Positions 1,476-46,143 of a stretch of DNA of 64,000 nt are shown here, one piece after another. Numbering within the stretch: the first letter of the stretch is position 1; each line of letters opens with the position of its first letter. A program made the position numbers and the translations under genes. The DNA lies in the NCBI GenBank assembly GCA_017412645.1, contig JAFPWX010000019.1:85015-149014 (forward strand). Reading direction: 5' to 3'. The notes beneath the pieces were generated by a model. That model was not told where the DNA came from. It worked only from the letters and a program-made list of their open reading frames with translations, and did no database searches. The stretch is from Bacteroidales bacterium. Its GTDB lineage: Bacteria; Bacteroidota; Bacteroidia; Bacteroidales; UBA932.

Positions 1476-1503
1476 TGGCCCCAGGGACTCTTTCCCCCCA
1501 AGT

Positions 1504-1589
1504 GCTCGTACCCTGCTTTTTTCTGGCAGGTTACGAGCATTTAAGGCCTTTTTTGCTCGTACCCTGCGCGATTTTTACAGGTTACGAGC
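1504..1589. repeat. composite palindromic element 1: two 35-bp hairpins around a T-rich core
   Basis: Two copies of a 35-bp palindrome (1504-1538 and 1555-1589) have arms GCTCGTACCCTG and CAGGTTACGAGC. They flank a core containing AAGGCCTTTTTTGC. The second copy recurs, inverted and with one mismatch, at 7000-7034. The layout hairpin-core-hairpin is shared with the elements at 1750 and 23596. No gene is visible in 1441-1864; besides this element it holds the hairpin at 1685 and the element at 1750. Confidence 0.75.
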
Positions 1590-1684
1590 AGTTGCGCCGG
1601 CGTGGTCTAGCCGTCGCTCCTCTCTTCGCCGCGGCGCTGCCGCGCCGTCGTTCCGCTCCGAGCCATTTCGTCTGGCCTTTTGCC

Positions 1685-1715: not shown

Positions 1716-1749
1716 GTGCTCCTACCCGCAGTCTTGGCCCCAAAGTGTA

Positions 1750-1831
1750 GCTAACGTGCAGAAAAGCTTGTACGTTAGCAGCAAAAAAGGGCAAAAACGC
1801 TCCCAACGTGCACTGGAAACTGCACGTTAGC
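1750..1831. repeat. composite palindromic element 2
   Basis: Hairpin GCTAACGT/ACGTTAGC (1750-1779) is followed by the core CAGCAAAAAAGGGCAAAAACG and a second hairpin AACGTGCA/TGCACGTT (1805-1828). The arms differ from element 1, while the A-rich core around GGC is shared with the elements at 13284, 13488, 17967 and 23596. It ends about 34 nt from the stop of the convergent GtrA-family gene. Confidence 0.65.
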
Positions 1832-1864
1832 CGCACTACCTATAGGAATATCGCTCGGGAATAA

Positions 1865-6899: not shown

Positions 6900-6999
6900 G
6901 TGAGTTATTGATTTGTAGGCCGTTGCAATATAATAACTATTTTTTATAATAACAACGGGAATGCGAGAATACGCCTCAGAGCGGAGTTAAAGCGCAACA

Positions 7000-7034
7000 G
7001 CTCGTAACCTGTAAAAATCGCTCAGGGTACGAGC
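7000..7034. repeat. single copy of the 35-bp palindrome of element 1
   Basis: The reverse complement matches 1555-1589 at 34 of 35 positions. It lies between the C10 protease and manC, 10 nt from the manC stop, where it could act as a terminator hairpin. The rest of 6900-7043 is AT-rich with no gene visible. Confidence 0.75.
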
Positions 7035-7043
7035 ACTCCCCCC

Positions 7044-11789: not shown

Positions 11790-13928
11790 TTATTCGAGAC
11801 CCACCGCCAGGAAAGCGAGGAAGCCTTCGATGTCAAGGTTGTAACCGCGCGGAGGGGCGAGCTGGGTGCCGTCGGGGGAGAGCAGGATGTAGTTGGGCTG
11901 GGCGTTCACCCCGAAGCGTTCCCGGGCGATGTAGGAGTTCACCCTGCCGAGGTCCTTGAGAACCTTGCCGCTGGGGGTGGTTACCCAGTCGGAGGGGTCC
12001 AGGGGAGTCTTGTCGTCGTTGTAGAGGGCGACGATTATGTAGTGGTTGCGCAGGATTTCCAGCACCCGCGGGTCGCTCCATACGCGCTGTTCCATTTCCC
12101 GGCAGTTCACGCAGCCATGCCCGGTCACGTCCACGAATACCGGCTTGTTTTCGGCTTTGGCTGCCTCCAGACCCTCCTCCAGGGTGAAATATCCCGGAAG
12201 TCCGAGAGGCATCTTGAGGCCGTATTTGTTGCCGGCGCCTTCAGCGAGCTCCGAAGATTTGACCTCCATCGGAGGCAGGTAGCCCGAAAGAGCCTTCAGC
12301 GGAGCGCCCCAGAGGCCGGTTGCAAGATATGCCACGAAGGCGAAGGATGCCAGGCTGAGGATGATGCGGAGGGCCGACAGGCGTTTGATCTTGGCGTCGC
12401 GCTTGAAGCGTATCACCCCGAGCAGATAGAGTCCCATCAGGGCGAAACAGATTATCCAGATTATCAGGTACAGCTTGCGGCCCAGGATTCCCCAGTGGTA
12501 GGTCTGGTCGGCCACGCTCAGGAACTTGAGACCCAGGGCTACCTCGATGAAGCCCAGGCACACCTTTACGCTGTTCAGCCAGCCGCCGCTCTTCGGGAGC
12601 TTTTTCAGCAGCCCCGGGAACATCGCCAGCAATGTGAAGGGGAGGGCAAAGGCCAGCGAGAAAGCCAGCATGGTTATCATCGGCGCCCAGAACTCCCCGG
12701 CCGTGCTCTTGATAAGGACCGTTCCCACTATGGGTCCTGTGCAGGAGAACGATACCAGAACCAGAGTGAGGGCCAGGAAGAAGATACCTCCGAGGCTCCC
12801 CTTACTGGCCTTGGCGTCGCTGCCGTTCACCCATTTGGATGGGAGCGTTATCTCAAACGCGCCGAAGAAGCTGGCAGCGAACACCATGAACACTATGAAG
12901 AAGATTATGTTGGGCAGCCAGTGGGTGGCGAGCCAGTTGAAGATATCGGCGGTAACGGCGTCGCCCCCTATCGCGCGCGTGAGTATTATTATAATGGAGA
13001 TGGGGACCGTGTAGAGCAGCACGATGAAGAGTCCGTACATCAAAGCCTTGAAGCGTCCCGCAGCGGGTGTGCTTTCGCCCTTGAGGAAGAACGACACCGT
13101 CATGGGCACCATCGGGAATACGCAGGGCGTAAGCAGCATGGCCAGGCCCCAGAGGATAGCCTCGAGGATCAGCGCCCAAAGGCCGCCCCCGGTGCCGGCC
13201 TGGGTGGAATTGCCGACTGTCTGCTGCCCCTCGGCCGCGGACTCGCCCGAGACCTCAACCGCGGACTCGTCGGAGAGCGAACCGTCATTTTCGGCCATTT
13301 TTGCTGGTATCCCCCCGTTTTCGGAGGGGGATACCGTCATTTTCGCCCCTTTTTGCTGGTTGGCCCCCTCGCCGTCGGTCGTTCCAAGTCCAGCCGCCTT
13401 TATCTCGAACTCCCAATCCAGCGGGGGAGTGCACATCTGGTCGTTGCATGCGGAATAGGTTACGGTTCCGCGGATGATGTTTGCGGCGTCATTTTCGGCC
13501 GATTTTGACGCACCCCCCAGGTTTTCGACGGGGGGGTGTTGCGTTTTCGGGCCTTTTTGCTCCCGCGCCCCTAACGCAACACGTTGTGCGAACACCGCCT
13601 TGCCGGAGAATACCTCCCGACCCTGCAGCGTCTCTCCCTTTGAAACCGCATACGGTTCTCCGACCGCCACTGCACCGGCCTCAAGCGTGATGACAGTGGC
13701 GTTGTCCGGGTCGTTCAGGCCGTAGATGTGCCAGCCCGGCAGTATCGTGGCGGAGAACTCCAGCACGGCCGTCGCGCCGCCTGCAGCCTCGCTCGCCGCA
13801 ACATCTTTCACCTCCACTTTCCATCGCACTATATTTTCCGGGGCCTGGGCCGAGGCGGGGAGAGCCGGGAAAACCGCGCCCGCCGCCAGCGACATGGCCG
13901 CAAAGAGGGATATCAGCAACTTTTTCAT
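11790..13928 (-). CDS. dsbD: thiol:disulfide interchange protein DsbD with two repeat-derived inserts
   Basis: DsbD carries reducing power from cytoplasmic thioredoxin to the periplasm. The 712-residue product has a signal peptide, an N-terminal domain with the Cys pair in YSACNDQMCTPP (near 158-168), a membrane domain with LLTPCVFPMVP and FSCTGPIVG, and a C-terminal thioredoxin domain with GCVNCREME. All three Cys pairs are present. Residues 123-147 and 191-215 are two related 25-residue inserts, QKGPKTQHPP...KSAEND and QKGAKMTVSP...KMAEND, encoded by palindromic repeat elements. The first lies between two strands of the N-terminal domain, the second in the linker to the membrane domain. It heads the minus-strand run ending at manC. 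Confidence 0.93.
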   Translation of the reverse strand: MKKLLISLFAAMSLAAGAVFPALPASAQAPENIVRWKVEVKDVAASEAAGGATAVLEFSATILPGWHIYGLNDPDNATVITLEAGAVAVGEPYAVSKGETLQGREVFSGKAVFAQRVALGAREQKGPKTQHPPVENLGGASKSAENDAANIIRGTVTYSACNDQMCTPPLDWEFEIKAAGLGTTDGEGANQQKGAKMTVSPSENGGIPAKMAENDGSLSDESAVEVSGESAAEGQQTVGNSTQAGTGGGLWALILEAILWGLAMLLTPCVFPMVPMTVSFFLKGESTPAAGRFKALMYGLFIVLLYTVPISIIIILTRAIGGDAVTADIFNWLATHWLPNIIFFIVFMVFAASFFGAFEITLPSKWVNGSDAKASKGSLGGIFFLALTLVLVSFSCTGPIVGTVLIKSTAGEFWAPMITMLAFSLAFALPFTLLAMFPGLLKKLPKSGGWLNSVKVCLGFIEVALGLKFLSVADQTYHWGILGRKLYLIIWIICFALMGLYLLGVIRFKRDAKIKRLSALRIILSLASFAFVAYLATGLWGAPLKALSGYLPPMEVKSSELAEGAGNKYGLKMPLGLPGYFTLEEGLEAAKAENKPVFVDVTGHGCVNCREMEQRVWSDPRVLEILRNHYIIVALYNDDKTPLDPSDWVTTPSGKVLKDLGRVNSYIARERFGVNAQPNYILLSPDGTQLAPPRGYNLDIEGFLAFLAVGLE
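13284..13358 (-). repeat. palindromic element 4, in frame inside dsbD
   Basis: 75 nt (25 codons) built as core-hairpin-core. The cores are CAAAAAGGGGCGAAAATGAC and GCAAAAATGGCCGAAAATGAC, around a hairpin whose arms GGTATCCCCC and GGGGGATACC are perfect complements. It encodes residues 191-215 of DsbD. The core matches those of the intergenic elements. Confidence 0.8.
13488..13562 (-). repeat. palindromic element 5, in frame inside dsbD
   Basis: 75 nt (25 codons) with the same layout, strand and reading frame as the copy at 13284. A core CAAAAAGGCCCGAAAACG, a hairpin with C/G-run arms and a GTCGAAAACC loop, and a second core ending GGCCGAAAATGAC. It encodes residues 123-147 of DsbD. Confidence 0.8.
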
Positions 13929-16726: not shown

Positions 16727-17146
16727 ATGGGACAGAGGAAAAGACTTATGGCCGAACGCTTCAAGGAAGCGAAGAAGACCACGGCAATCGCCAAGCTTAA
16801 CGACAATCCCACTTCTCCCCGCAAGATGCGCCTCGTGGCTGACACCGTGCGTGGTGTCGAGGTCAACAAGGCCCTCGATCTCCTGCACTTCAGCAAGCGC
16901 GAGCCGTCCATCAAGCTGGAAAAGCTGATCCGCAGCGCCATCGCCAACTGGGAAGCCAAGAATCCCGAAGGAGCGAAGGATCTCGAAAGCGGAAGAGTTT
17001 ATGTAAAGACCATCATGGTTGGCGAAGGCCGCACCATCAAGCGTGTACGCCCCATGCCTCAGGGCAGGGCCGGTCGTATCCGCAAGCGCAGCAACCACGT
17101 CACCGTGATTCTCGATGTCAAACCCGCAGCAGAGGAGGCAAAGTAA
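16727..17146 (+). CDS. rplV: 50S ribosomal protein L22
   Basis: L22 binds all 23S rRNA domains and its beta hairpin lines the exit tunnel. The 139-residue product is longer than the about 110 residues of E. coli, with an N-terminal extension ([20 protein letters not shown]). The core [17 protein letters not shown] and the hairpin [16 protein letters not shown] are intact. The stop lies 1 nt before the rpsC ATG. Confidence 0.97.
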
Positions 17147-17147
17147 T

Positions 17148-17918
17148 ATGGGACAGAAAACTAATCCTATCAGCAACAGAATCGGCATCACCCGCGGTTG
17201 GGATTCCAACTGGGCCGGTGGAAACTATGCCGAGAAGATAGCGGAAGACTACAAGATCCGTCAGTATCTGGGAGGCCGTCTTGCAAAGGCAGGTCTCAGC
17301 CGCATCGTCATCGAGCGCACCCTCAAGCTCATCACCGTCACCATCTACGCAGCCCGTCCCGGTTTCATTATCGGTAAGGGAGGCACCGAGGTCGACAAGC
17401 TTAAGGAAGAGCTCAAGAAGGTCACCGGCAAGGAGGTGCAGGTCAATATCTACGAAGTTCGCCGTCCCGAAGTGGACGCACACATCGTGGCCGACAGCAT
17501 CGCCCGCCAGATCGAAGGCCGCGTCAGCTATCGCCGCGCCATCAAGATGGCCATCGCCAACACCATGCGTGTCGGTGCAGAGGGCATCAAGGTGCAGATC
17601 AGCGGTCGTGTAGGTGGCGCCGAAATCGCCCGTTCCGAGATGTTCAAGGAAGGCCGCACTCCGCTGCATACCTTCCGTGCAGACATCGACTACGCCCTGG
17701 CAGTCGCTCGCACCAGCATGGGTGCCCTCGGCATCAAGGTGTGGATCTGCAACGGCGAAAAGTACGGCAAGCAGGATCTTACTCCCGCTGCCTTCGCAGC
17801 AGCCAACGCACAGGCTGCCGGCGCAGGCCGCAGCGGTGGTCGTGGAGACCGCCGTCCGCGCCGCGACGGTGACCGTGGTGGCCGCGGTGGAGAGCGTCGC
17901 CCCCGTCGCGAGAACTAA
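17148..17918 (+). CDS. rpsC: 30S ribosomal protein S3
   Basis: S3 lies at the mRNA entry channel and takes part in unwinding mRNA. The 256-residue product starts [19 protein letters not shown] and has the KH domain motif [19 protein letters not shown]-terminal tail rich in Arg, Gly and Asp (about 215-256) extends beyond the E. coli protein. I chose ATG 17148, just after the rplV stop. It ends the second ribosomal block; a strong hairpin follows, and rplP, normally next, is 34.6 kb downstream. Confidence 0.97.
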
Positions 17919-17966
17919 TCGCGGAGCGCTCTGTAGAGAGCCCTGACGATTAGGGTCGTTTTTGAA

Positions 17967-18021
17967 GGACCCCCCGGGTGAAAAGCCCGGGGGGTCTGAC
18001 GTTTTTGGCCTTTTTTGACAG
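17967..18021. repeat. palindromic element 6 / terminator of the rplC-rpsC block
   Basis: GACCCCCCGGG and CCCGGGGGGTC (17968-17996) form a perfect 11-bp stem with loop TGAAAAG, followed by TGACGTTTTTGGCCTTTTTTG. The T-rich part is the reverse complement of the core in the other elements. It lies between the convergent rpsC and the WG-repeat gene and probably terminates transcription from at least the + side. Confidence 0.75.
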
Positions 18022-18032
18022 GACAGTCTTTC

Positions 18033-20129
18033 CTATCGCACCGCCTCCAGTGCGGAGAGAGTATGCGGGATATGCTCGCCGGGGAGTCTTACGATTCTCC
18101 TTTCGCGGTCGCGGACAGCCTGTTCCGCGGCCTTTTTCTCTTCAGCTGCCTTGCGCTCCTGCTCGGCCTTTTGCTCCTGAGCGAGTTTGGCCTGCTCTGC
18201 CCTGCTGGTAGGACCAGCGGGAGTGGTGGTGGCAGGCTGGCGTCCGTGCTGACTGGGCTGAGAGTGGCCCTGGGGAGCGGGTGTGGTGCGGCCGGAACCG
18301 GCGGCGGAACCCGAAGCGGCCTCGGAACCGGAACCAGAGCCTGAGCCTGAGCCTGCCTTATCAAGTCCCTCGAACCTCGGATCGAAAGGATCGCGGGTCA
18401 GAAGTGCGATTCCAGGTCCTTCAAATACTATCATACCGTTTCCGACATAATCGGCAAAGGGCATGATGGCCAGGGTGCGCATCCAGCGACCGTCTTCCTC
18501 ATAGAGCGAAAGAACCAGATCGTACGCCAAACCAGTGCCGTGAACATCGTCCTTGGTGCCGCCGCGGCTGGAGGCAATGAGGCTCAGTCCCACGGTGCGG
18601 GCGTTGTTCGGACCCCAGTAGATGATTTCTTCTCCCTCCATCTTATAGTAGGGATCGTCGAACTTGTCGATGAAGTGGCAGACGAGTTCGTCGTGCAGCT
18701 TCACTTCGGCTCCGGCGTCGCTCCTCTTCACGGAGCAATTTACAACCTCGCCCATATGGAACGGACGGTGGAAGACCTTGCTGCGAGAAGCGTCGCGCTC
18801 GGCGTGTGCGAGTGCTCCGTCCTGTACCAGGGGGATGTAAGAGGTGATACCGGTATTCTCGCCTTCGATGATATCCATGCAGCGATTCACGAAGTCGGTA
18901 TGGTTGCTGAGTTTCGACACAAAATTCGGGTCGATTCCAAGGCCGTGGAACACATCGGTGTGCACAAGCTCATGGTAGCCGACCAGCGGCAGGGTATAGG
19001 CCCTCATGCCAGGAGCGTTGATGTCGGCCATGGCCAGCCAGCGCTGTCCGTCTGCGGCCACATAGATGAGGCCCTGTGCGCACTCCGCCTCGAAATATCC
19101 ATAATTGCTGATCGTCTTCACCAGGCTGCCGTCGGCCTCATAGAGAAGGGCCTTCAAAACGTAGCTCTTCTGGTTCGAGAAAGACATCGAGCCCGTGGTT
19201 CCCGGCTGCACGGCGAAGGGTTCGAAACGCACGAAGCGTCCGTAGCCCCATTCGATGGGAAGGTCAGCGCAAAGCACAGTGGCGCCCAGAAGATCCCTGC
19301 GCAGCTCCATGAGCTTGAGGCTGTTCTCGTGGAACCTCACGCCAACCGGACCGCATCTGTATGCGGCTGCGCGGACCGGGTCTCCCTGGGGATCGTAGGG
19401 GATCACCGCGCCGGCCTGGCGGAATACCTGCTTGCTGCTGAGGTCTCCGCTGAAGAAGACGTGGGTGAAGTCGGTGGCGAGGCACTTGTACGATCCGGAC
19501 GAGCGGGTGATTGCCAGATACTCGAAGGGAACCGGGACGGAACCGTTTTCGCAGATAATGCCCTTCAGGCGCTTCATACCGTCGGTGGCGATGGCATAAC
19601 CGTCGTTGAAAGAAGGACGGATATAGAACTGCGGGGCGAATATTTCTTGCCCTGCGGCATTGTAAATACCCCAGAGCCTCTCATAGCCGAAGCCGGCCAC
19701 AGGAGCCTCCTTCTCGCCGAAGAACAGGCGTCCGTCACGAGATACTGCCACGTCGCGGAACTCCAGCGGCAGGACGATACGACCGGTGATGTCCGCGATG
19801 CCGCGGTACTTCACGCTTCCCTCCTTCTGCATGAGTTCGCAGTAGCCGTACTTGTCGAACTTGCTGATATTGTCGTATTCGGCAGGAATGATAAAAGTGC
19901 CCTGTCCGTCGATGATACCGGTGCGGCCGTTCAGTTTCACTTCGGCCATACCGTTCTTGTCGAACTTGCCGGCGGCATCGAACTGCGGTTCGATAATCCA
20001 GACTTTGCCTTTTGCCTGATATCCGTATTTCTTTGTAGCCTTGTCCTTTACAGGCTTCATGTCCTGTGCGGAAGCGGCGAGCGAAAGAAGCATCGCAAAT
20101 GCACAGAGGATAGTTTCGATATGTTTCAT
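18033..20129 (-). CDS. secreted WG-repeat protein with low-complexity tail
   Basis: A 698-residue protein with a signal peptide ending near LAASAQ. The N-terminal third has WG-repeat units such as KYGYQAKGKVWIIEPQFDAAGKF, GRTGIIDGQGTFIIPAEYD and RLWGIYNAAGQEIFAPQF. These are thought to form beta structures for protein binding; no enzymatic motif is seen. Near residue 590 a Gly-Ser repeat (GSGSGSGSE) leads into Pro/Thr-rich sequence and an Ala/Glu/Lys/Gln coiled-coil-like stretch before a basic end. It is a single gene, convergent with rpsC and divergent from the lipoprotein gene at 20235. Its function is unknown. Confidence 0.75.
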   Translation of the reverse strand: MKHIETILCAFAMLLSLAASAQDMKPVKDKATKKYGYQAKGKVWIIEPQFDAAGKFDKNGMAEVKLNGRTGIIDGQGTFIIPAEYDNISKFDKYGYCELMQKEGSVKYRGIADITGRIVLPLEFRDVAVSRDGRLFFGEKEAPVAGFGYERLWGIYNAAGQEIFAPQFYIRPSFNDGYAIATDGMKRLKGIICENGSVPVPFEYLAITRSSGSYKCLATDFTHVFFSGDLSSKQVFRQAGAVIPYDPQGDPVRAAAYRCGPVGVRFHENSLKLMELRRDLLGATVLCADLPIEWGYGRFVRFEPFAVQPGTTGSMSFSNQKSYVLKALLYEADGSLVKTISNYGYFEAECAQGLIYVAADGQRWLAMADINAPGMRAYTLPLVGYHELVHTDVFHGLGIDPNFVSKLSNHTDFVNRCMDIIEGENTGITSYIPLVQDGALAHAERDASRSKVFHRPFHMGEVVNCSVKRSDAGAEVKLHDELVCHFIDKFDDPYYKMEGEEIIYWGPNNARTVGLSLIASSRGGTKDDVHGTGLAYDLVLSLYEEDGRWMRTLAIMPFADYVGNGMIVFEGPGIALLTRDPFDPRFEGLDKAGSGSGSGSGSEAASGSAAGSGRTTPAPQGHSQPSQHGRQPATTTPAGPTSRAEQAKLAQEQKAEQERKAAEEKKAAEQAVRDRERRIVRLPGEHIPHTLSALEAVR

Positions 20130-22179: not shown

Positions 22180-23595
22180 ATGTACAATCCTTCGTCAACG
22201 CACGCCGATGATTTCATAAATCATGACGAAATCCTGGAAAGTCTCGATGAGGCTTCCCGCGAGTCAAAGAACCACGCTCGCGTAGAGGCAATACTTGAAA
22301 AGGGAGCATTGTGCAAGGGCCTTACCCACAGGGAGGCCGCTACCCTCATGGCCTGCGACGATCCCGCCCTGGAGGAGCGCCTTTTCGCCCTCGCCAAGGA
22401 AATCAAACATAAGTTCTACGGCAACCGCATCGTGCTGTTCGCCCCGCTCTACCTTTCAAACTATTGCATTAACGGTTGTGTATACTGTCCTTACCACGCC
22501 AAGAACCGCACCATTCCCCGCCGTAAGCTCTCCCAGGAAGAGATAGCGGATGAGGTGCGCGCCCTCATACGCATGGGCCACAAGCGCCTTGCCGTGGAAG
22601 CCGGTGAAGACCCGAGGAACAACCCCCTCGAGTACATCCTCGAGTCCATCAAAACGATATACAGCGTGAATGAGGGCGGCAATTCCATCCGTCGCGTGAA
22701 TGTGAACATTGCCGCAACGGACGTGGAGAGCTTCCGCAAGCTCAAGGCCGCAGGCATCGGCACGTATATTCTCTTCCAGGAAACCTACAATAAGGAGAAT
22801 TACCAGAAGCTGCACCCCACCGGACCCAAGAGCAATTACGACTGGCACACCGAGGCCATGGACCGCGCCCAGGAAGGCGGTTGTGACGACGTGGGCATCG
22901 GCGTGCTCTTCGGCCTCAGCAACTATATGTATGAGCTCGTGGGTATACTCATGCACGCCGAGCATCTGGAAGCCCGCTTCGGAGTGGGCCCGCACACCAT
23001 CAGCGTGCCGCGTATCTGCCCGGCCGACGACATCTCCCTGGATAGCTTCCAGGACGCCCTTCCGGACAATATCTTCCACAAGCTCGTAGCCGTTCTCCGC
23101 ATCGCGGTGCCGTACACCGGAATGATTATCTCCACCCGCGAATCGGCAAAGATGAGGGGTCTGCTCCTGGACTGCGGCATCTCCCAGATCAGCGGCGGGT
23201 CGCGCACCAGCGTGGGCGGCTATACCACTGTGGAAAGGCACGACGAGACCGCCCAGTTCGACGTCTCGGATACCCGTTCCCTCGACGACGTGGTGCGCTG
23301 GCTGCTGGAGAAGGACCACATTCCTTCCTTCTGCACCGCCTGCTACCGCGAGGGGCGCACAGGCGACCGCTTCATGAGCCTCTGCAAGAGCGGCAAGATA
23401 AGCCTCTGCTGCACCCCCAACGCGCTCATGACCCTGAAGGAATATCTCATGGACTACGCCTCCCCGGAAACCCGTGCCGCCGGCGAAGCCCTCATCGCAA
23501 AGGGCCTTCTGGACATTCCGCTGGAGAAGACCCGTGAAATCACCTGTGACCGTCTCCAGCGCATAGAAAACGGCGAGCGCGATTTTAGATTCTAA
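22180..23595 (+). CDS. hydG: [FeFe]-hydrogenase maturase HydG
   Basis: HydG is a radical SAM tyrosine lyase that makes the CO and CN ligands of the hydrogenase H-cluster. The 471-residue product has the SAM cluster motif C96-x3-C100-x2-C103 (YCINGCVYC) and the typical VEAGEDPRNNPLEYILE and FQETYNKENYQKLHP. The C-terminal CTACYREGRTGDRFM and later cysteines bind the second, dangler-iron cluster. hydF follows after a palindromic element. hydE is not in this window. Confidence 0.95.
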   Translation: MYNPSSTHADDFINHDEILESLDEASRESKNHARVEAILEKGALCKGLTHREAATLMACDDPALEERLFALAKEIKHKFYGNRIVLFAPLYLSNYCINGCVYCPYHAKNRTIPRRKLSQEEIADEVRALIRMGHKRLAVEAGEDPRNNPLEYILESIKTIYSVNEGGNSIRRVNVNIAATDVESFRKLKAAGIGTYILFQETYNKENYQKLHPTGPKSNYDWHTEAMDRAQEGGCDDVGIGVLFGLSNYMYELVGILMHAEHLEARFGVGPHTISVPRICPADDISLDSFQDALPDNIFHKLVAVLRIAVPYTGMIISTRESAKMRGLLLDCGISQISGGSRTSVGGYTTVERHDETAQFDVSDTRSLDDVVRWLLEKDHIPSFCTACYREGRTGDRFMSLCKSGKISLCCTPNALMTLKEYLMDYASPETRAAGEALIAKGLLDIPLEKTREITCDRLQRIENGERDFRF

Positions 23596-23687
23596 GTGTC
23601 GGAGACGTCCCGATTTTTGGGACGTCTCGGTCAAAAAAGGCCCAAAAATGTCGGCAACGTCCCTAAAAATGGGACGTCTCGGACACC
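23596..23687. repeat. palindromic element 7 between hydG and hydF
   Basis: Hairpin GAGACGTCCC/GGGACGTCTC, then the core CAAAAAAGGCCCAAAAATG, then a second GACGTCCC-type hairpin, all closed by an outer GTGTC/GACAC pair. It begins at the base after the hydG stop and ends 10 nt before the hydF ATG. Its frame stays open into hydF, so an extended HydF starting at GTG 23596 is formally possible but unlikely. Confidence 0.75.
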
Positions 23688-23697
23688 TTGCAAAATT

Positions 23698-45827: not shown

Positions 45828-46143
45828 TGCCTCGGGCGGGAATCGAACCCGCACGGCCGTTTCGGGCCAAGGGATTTTCTTACCACTATGGCTTTCGCCA
45901 CCTACTAACGCCATGACAGCGTTGCATTTGTGGTCTGGACTATTCCTTCACCATAGAGCCGGGCTCTTTAGGTGTGCCGTGTCTAGTCTCTGCACCTTCC
46001 TCTCATTAGAGGCTTGGCTCAAGATTGCCTTCTGCATTACCTGTTAAGGTTTCCTTGAATTTACGGCATTCTACATCTCTCCTTTCGGAAAGTGCACTCA
46101 ATTTTGTCTAAGTCCCTCGTGTCTACCATTCCACCACCAAGGC
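45828..46143 (-). tRNA. tRNA-Leu(UAA), interrupted by a group I intron
   Basis: The 5' exon (46143-46110, 34 nt) ends GGGACTT and the 3' exon (45878-45828, 51 nt) begins AAAATCCC. Joined they give an 85-nt class II tRNA: acceptor GCCTTGG/CCGAGGC, anticodon loop CTTAAAA with anticodon TAA, variable arm GGCCCGAAACGGCCG and T arm GCGGG/CCCGC with TTCGATT. The discriminator is A45828, with no encoded CCA. The exon break lies after U34. Confidence 0.95.
45879..46109 (-). ncRNA. group I intron in the tRNA-Leu(UAA) anticodon loop
   Basis: A 231-nt intron without an ORF. P1 pairs exon ACTT with intron GAGT, giving the U-G wobble at the 5' splice site. P3 is TGCCGT/ACGGCA, P4 TCAAG/CTTGA, P5 AAGG/CCTT, P6a CCTC/GAGG, P7 GACTA/TAGTC, and P8 CACC/GGTG with an AGAGC/GCTCT top. 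The core text GGCAATCTTGAGCCAAGCC resembles that of cyanobacterial tRNA-Leu introns. P9 elements include AACGC/GCGTT and GGC-GAAA-GCC, and the last base is G. It should self-splice. Confidence 0.93.

Follow-up and report, generated by a model that had tools for sequence, protein, structure and literature searches.

The window, which is the whole 64,000-nucleotide stretch of Bacteroidales contig JAFPWX010000019.1 analyzed here, carries a dsbD gene whose open reading frame (ORF) runs through two palindromic inserts, named elements A and B. The 712-amino-acid product matches the Pfam families DsbD_TM and thioredoxin-like and, weakly, DsbD_N (amino acids 50 to 175; 20.5 bits, under its 25-bit cutoff). 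Its named relatives come from Bacteroidales metagenome-assembled genomes (MAGs), Candidatus Cryptobacteroides among them, and the genus may be Cryptobacteroides-like. The gene, its inserts, and the related elements of the window are as follows.

11790-13928, minus strand: dsbD ORF, 712 amino acids, both inserts in frame
13280-13361, minus strand: element A, consisting of outer arm, linker, hairpin GGTATCCCCC / GGGGGATACC, linker, outer arm
13339-13354, minus strand: left linker of A, AAAAAGGGGCGAAAAT
13287-13302, minus strand: right linker of A, AAAAATGGCCGAAAAT
13484-13565, minus strand: element B, with the layout of element A and stem ACACCCCCC / GGGGGGTGC
13543-13558, minus strand: left linker of B, AAAAAGGCCCGAAAAC
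13491-13506, minus strand: right linker of B, AAAATCGGCCGAAAAT
17936-18028, minus strand: intergenic L-H-L element, covariance-model E value 9e-15 (part of the training set), fold z score -3.9
1501-1597, minus strand: H-L-H element, stem CTCGTAACCTG, fold z score -6.4
1743-1838, plus strand: H-L-H element, stem AACGTGCA, ends judged by eye
6992-7037, plus strand: single hairpin of the CTCGTAACCTG class, an inverted match to 1554-1597
23590-23688, plus strand: H-L-H element, stem GACGTCCC, fold z score -7.5

The original prediction described two 75-nt palindromic units with a common strand and frame, and the repeats are indeed of that size and at the coordinates given (A, 13284-13358; B, 13488-13562). 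The palindromic unit itself is longer, since each 75-nt repeat stands between complementary outer arms of about 7 nt. Element A encodes QKGAKMTVSPSENGGIPAKMAEND in the linker ahead of the membrane domain, and element B encodes QKGPKTQHPPVENLGGASKSAEND inside the N-terminal domain delimited by the weak DsbD_N match, so that the predicted positions and the relatedness of the two peptides hold. Covariance-model E values are 6.8e-19 for A and 9.0e-17 for B, both of which belong to the training set. DsbD homologs also bore out the expectation that the inserts would be absent: none of 109 aligned homologs, a count that includes near-duplicates from two collections and 7 proteins whose alignment leaves out the left flank of B as well, contains insert B or the peptide of A. 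This rules out a conserved DsbD domain as the source of the inserts. A known RNA within dsbD was likewise rejected, with no Rfam family reaching its gathering score and a snoRNA match staying below threshold (20.2 of 49 bits). Elsewhere in the window, at 45828-46143 on the minus strand, lies a tRNA-Leu-like gene with a group I intron; its halves were read as tRNA-Leu by eye, ARAGORN called no tRNA there, and the intron matches Rfam RF00028 at 45923-46119 with 50.5 bits against a cutoff of 50.

The L-H-L elements consist of an outer arm, a 16-nt linker (AAAAANGGCCNAAAAT), a hairpin, a second linker, and an outer arm, the inner stem being drawn as 9 bp with a loop of about 12 to 13 nt. The repeating module is about 52 nt long and combines a variable, covarying hairpin with a conserved A-rich linker containing GGCC. 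In an alignment of 33 of 43 pairs, the three-helix structure pairs 85.2% of cells compared with 71.1% in shuffles, a percentage that leans toward the drawn structure because this was drawn by the analyst from the same sequences. The covariation score is 0.395 compared with 0.153 in shuffles, none of 500 shuffles scoring as high, and it drops to 0.104 or less when the partners are slid. Two of the five covariation measures tried do not surpass shuffles, namely, pairs changed on both sides (11 versus 11.5) and further pair types (27 versus 27.1); in the GGCC helix, no pair is changed on both sides. The 10 pairs omitted at the analyst's choice, 3 of them from arrays and 7 of greater divergence, make the alignment favor uniformity. 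At least four stem classes share one linker consensus, with inner stems GGTATCC, GACCCC, ACACCCC, and GCGACCCC. The arms of some elements mix stem classes. The foot before the right linker is CGTC in 22 and TGTC in 7 of 47 copies, and that before the left linker is CGTC in 15 and TGTC in 7. A GTAG foot is thus not the dsbD-type pattern, although GTAG...CTAC does occur in some other stem classes. Linkers of neighboring modules are mostly 52 to 53 nt apart, and tandem arrays with this period occur, for example at the end of contig C9 of this genome (L150, positions 1-230) and on contig C12 of the relative G233 (L292). In G233, a module array occupies a place that holds a single element in this genome.

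The linker core is common to the dsbD inserts and the intergenic elements, as had been proposed, and its three matches in the window with up to three mismatches compare with 0.02 expected from shuffles. The intergenic element at 17936-18028 lies between convergent ORFs, an rpsC-like ORF at 17115-17918 on the plus strand and a 698-amino-acid ORF at 18033-20129 on the minus strand; the alignment with G233 ends at 17928, just short of it. A second layout, H-L-H, in which two like hairpins stand about one linker, is found at three sites in the window.

Throughout the genome, 123 sequences match the 16-nt linker core when two mismatches are allowed, versus 16 for a reversed-pattern control. A covariance model places elements at 47 positions of the 1.8-Mb genome (48 of 101 matches, those with E values of 1e-9 or better, one place being matched on both strands), and these are the copies classified here; the E values of the aligned elements are not independent, because the model was trained on them. 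In total, 23 of the 47 lie in sense orientation and in frame within 16 Pfam-matched ORFs, a count that is partly by construction because ORFs spanning the elements were looked for. The hosts include an AroD-AroA fusion with five copies; DsbD, RsmE, and a HemW-like radical-SAM protein with two each; and AtpG, ApbE, an IspE-like GHMP kinase, aspartokinase/homoserine dehydrogenase, an OstA-like protein, an outer-membrane barrel, an HU/CCDC81 protein, a 4Fe-4S protein, a GFO/IDH protein, DUF3109, an FHA protein, and an MFS protein. Names beyond Pfam families and PDB hits are the analyst's reading, and the N-terminal copy in the 4Fe-4S ORF could precede the true start. A further two copies keep the frame in antisense orientation. 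One lies between the UPF0004 and Radical_SAM domains of an MtaB-like ORF, and the other is in a 306-amino-acid ORF whose status as a gene is weaker because it has no Pfam match. These two rule out insertion in the sense orientation only. The remaining 22 places are outside genes as judged by ORF and codon-usage heuristics: 12 adjoin a scored ORF at its 3' end, 3 adjoin an ORF start only, and the other 7 are more than 150 nt from any scored ORF. In the genus, 98 of 300 genomes, this one included, match the model at an E value of 0.01. In the order, 1 of 295 genomes (this one) does so at 1e-4, in a search with stricter filters and a model trained on this genome.

These coding contexts bear on whether the inserts reach the protein. 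Splicing of the RNA or bypassing by the ribosome would leave the peptide out of the product, and several elements do fold strongly as RNA (z score of -4.2 for element A compared with shuffles), dsbD element B being an exception (z score of -1.35 as a single sequence). Skipped inserts would not need open frames; nevertheless, the 25 intragenic copies lie in open frames without stops, which disfavors this explanation. Moreover, 1.83 of 3 sense frames are open compared with 0.97 of 3 in mononucleotide shuffles, and none of the other 22 places was seen to split a gene. Removal at the RNA or ribosome level is therefore very unlikely.

The closest relative sampled, G233, shares segments of 70 to 93% DNA identity with this genome, and its AroD-AroA is 80% identical over the alignment. 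It has no element at seven compared sites, which are the five of AroD-AroA, the first HemW-like site, and site B of DsbD. The 945-amino-acid AroD-AroA ORF accordingly has an ordinary 737-amino-acid ortholog, since all five inserts are missing in G233. At each AroD-AroA site, this genome is longer by 45 to 73 codons, which comprise the element and low-complexity flanks; one of the sites was split by the aligner. Compared with homologs of solved structure, there are 28 additional residues at the element in AtpG, 66 and 69 in RsmE, 53 and 54 in AroA, and 49 in ApbE; in the search with the HemW-like protein, the insert sites were poorly covered. AroB of another species is 26 residues longer at an element of different class and frame. 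The drafts and MAGs compared yielded no target duplication and no empty site exact at the nucleotide level.

G233 also holds related elements in frame, and four orthologous sites are filled in both relatives with differing stem classes. The stem classes of this genome (G000) and G233 differ in the DsbD linker, where the two inserts start at codons 13 residues apart, and at the second HemW-like site; in an MFS loop, the stem class of this genome differs from that on contig C79 of MAG G161. The MtaB linker has an antisense element in both relatives, each running to the same conserved DIFGAYSSGER stretch. Independent insertion into tolerant loops explains the presence of differing elements at one site. 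Tentatively, and with less confidence than that, RAYT enzymes (REP-associated transposases) of different stem specificity might instead act on resident intragenic elements as live substrates and swap their hairpins in place via the conserved linkers, rewriting the inserts in frame, a possibility to which the four sites with differing stem classes and the arms of mixed class lend support. The DsbD linker is occupied by other palindromes as well. In six loci (L036, L117, L112, L114, L043, and L123), it contains in-frame AACAAAAATGTT-type hairpins that encode "NKNV..." and may form another family of coding palindromes, and in another species (L282, in G161) it contains an in-frame palindrome with arms of about 16 to 17 nt, ATGCCTCCGAGGAGGC / GCCTCCTCGGAGGCAT.

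Two contigs of G161 are for the most part 88% (C79, L290) and 99.1% (C51, L291) identical to the window's genome, whereas the AroD-AroA protein of G161's own is only 66% identical to that of this genome; both contigs are probably cross-species contamination. Drafts and MAGs were used throughout, and the mixture in G161 of contigs from this species and from a near relative shows how an error of assembly or binning might enter. That such an artefact produced the inserts is hardly credible, given that contig C51, from another MAG, has an intragenic element in common with this genome at the matching position and that G233 has related elements in frame.

It had been proposed that repeat DNA is domesticated here as protein, in the sense that a peptide rich in lysine, glutamate, proline, and glycine is kept for a function in the host proteins. 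A shared reading would suit this proposal, as 17 of the 23 sense copies use one frame and 6 another. The HU/CCDC81 element (L160:3667-3758) would also suit it, being identical to its counterpart on the 88%-identical contig (L290) while both flanks show substitutions and gaps. Against it, related peptides occur in unrelated enzymes, antisense copies yield a different peptide from sense copies, extragenic copies are equally common, and G233 is without the element at the seven compared sites or encodes another peptide. Related peptides in unrelated enzymes, together with the empty or differently filled sites of the relative, are more in keeping with selfish DNA that is tolerated than with the gain of a function by the protein. 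The proposal is accordingly not upheld, and domestication is considered improbable.

A candidate for the mobilizing enzyme is found among the Y1-type genes, of which this genome has four. Y1_Tnp is above its cutoff in three of the four proteins, and NCBIfam REP_Tyr_transpos scores 27 to 45 bits in all four against a cutoff of 80. The RAYTs encoded on contigs C8 (385 amino acids) and C17 (330 amino acids) are 48% identical and have an HVH motif, and directly 3' of each gene is an H-L-H element with a stem of its own. The window elements at 23590-23688 and 1501-1597 have the stem types of the elements adjoining the C8 and C17 genes, respectively. The two genes of a third type have no element alongside. 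RAYT-like genes are present in 88 of 101 genus genomes. Of 37 RAYT loci, 15 have a same-stem H-L-H element in the 250-nt downstream window and 8 have one in the upstream window, compared with 3 of 740 shuffled downstream windows, according to a detector that compares loop-proximal arms; the other 22 downstream windows gave no H-L-H with it. Without the two loci of this genome, 13 of 35 downstream windows are positive, and an earlier detector that missed clear cases gave 11 of 37 downstream, 4 of 37 upstream, and 0 of 740 shuffles. Twelve of the 15 downstream linkers are within 4 mismatches (over 14 positions) of the dsbD linker core, compared with 2.1% of shuffled linkers.

The covariance model was also run over 49 RAYT loci, grouped by the analyst from pairwise identities into 34 of subfamily 1, 5 of subfamily 2, and 10 others. 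An L-H-L element is found at the subfamily 2 gene in L310 (G280; E value, 4e-8), L311 (7e-8), and L307 (8e-6), the latter two in G233. The remaining subfamily 2 loci gave 2.9e-4 (L308) and 0.016 (L303), the best of the 34 subfamily 1 loci gave 0.001, and the 10 other loci had no L-H-L match at an E value of 0.1. The tyrosine motif is YVQMN(S/C)V in subfamily 1 and YVHRNP or YVLRNP in four of the five subfamily 2 members (none matched in L311), with a HuH-Y spacing of about 60 in both. No subfamily 2 RAYT was found in the assembly of this genome, so the presumed mobilizer of the dsbD-type elements is seen only in relatives. That absence would suit a spread independent of RAYTs, by an unknown factor, template switching, or gene conversion, in which case the RAYT neighborhood would be incidental for L-H-L elements. 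So would the accessible part of one report (PMC3733652), in which CGTC-tagged REPs, RPE-4 and RPE-6 included, are described as having no dedicated transposase. L-H-L elements nonetheless adjoin subfamily 2 RAYT genes in both G233 and G280 and share their linker with the H-L-H elements that flank RAYT genes, and a spread of this kind is thus unlikely.

Taken together, the inserts are probably copies of a family of small nonautonomous, selfish, REP/REPIN-like elements of this Bacteroidales genus that are mobilized by RAYTs and whose intragenic copies survive only in frame. RAYT enzymes would recognize a folded single strand and then move the element, and copies within genes would persist only where the frame is kept and the loop is tolerant. 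The in-frame copies would be translated as hydrophilic extra loops of about 25 to 28 residues that may be mostly neutral. The genus provides in-frame copies by the dozen in core enzymes, relatives whose sites are empty or filled otherwise, and a candidate transposase next to the elements, which makes the mover of the palindromes and the tolerance of proteins for them testable in laboratory hosts. The elements also caution that a loop annotated in a genome of this kind can consist of repeat DNA.

In-frame REPs and Rickettsia palindromic elements (RPEs) are already known from the accessible text of earlier studies (PMC3733652, PMC6006769, PMC10969869, and PMC8266576). Among the matches listed in a literature search that mostly excluded subscription journals, none described in-frame palindromic elements from Bacteroidales. 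As summarized in the portions available of PMC3733652 and PMC10969869, the RPEs of Ogata et al. are short repeated palindromes, nearly half of them in frame in ORFs with a recurrent peptide, and what spreads these coding palindromes is left open in the cited papers as far as their accessible text goes. The likeness to RPEs noted in the original prediction is apt, as copies here lie both in frame within genes (25 of 47) and between genes (22 of 47). The present elements, set beside RPEs by description only, differ in belonging to another phylum, in combining variable stems with a conserved linker, and in having a RAYT-like transposase alongside, whereas the CGTC group with RPE-4 and RPE-6 is, in the same portion of PMC3733652, reported to lack one. 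Intragenic GTAG/CGTC REPs (Di Nocera 2013, PMC3733652, accessible part) form dimers that encode 20 to 30 amino acids inside enzymes, and recB of two Xanthomonas species has different REPs at about the same site. The dsbD-type elements may resemble CGTC REPs in their frequent CGTC or TGTC foot but have a loop of about 12 to 13 nt, compared with a stem of 8 to 9 bp and a loop of 4 to 5 nt in the text available for CGTC REPs; they also differ from GTAG/CGTC REPs in that their modules stand on 16-nt A-rich GGCC linkers and that one gene holds five copies. For Bacteroidetes TnpAY1 subclass 2.6 (RAYT group 5), the accessible part of PMC6006769 mentions "atypical secondary structures," a YIH[QN]NP motif, and a median HuH-Y spacing of 82. 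On that description, subfamily 1 RAYTs fall outside the subclass, with YVQMN instead of YIH[QN]NP and a spacing of about 60 instead of about 82, whereas the YVHRNP/YVLRNP motif of subfamily 2 resembles that of the subclass at a spacing that again is about 60 versus about 82. With HUH/Y1 genes by hairpin doublets, dispersed copies, and tandem arrays, the system as a whole resembles REPIN/BIME elements and their RAYT (TnpAREP) transposases.
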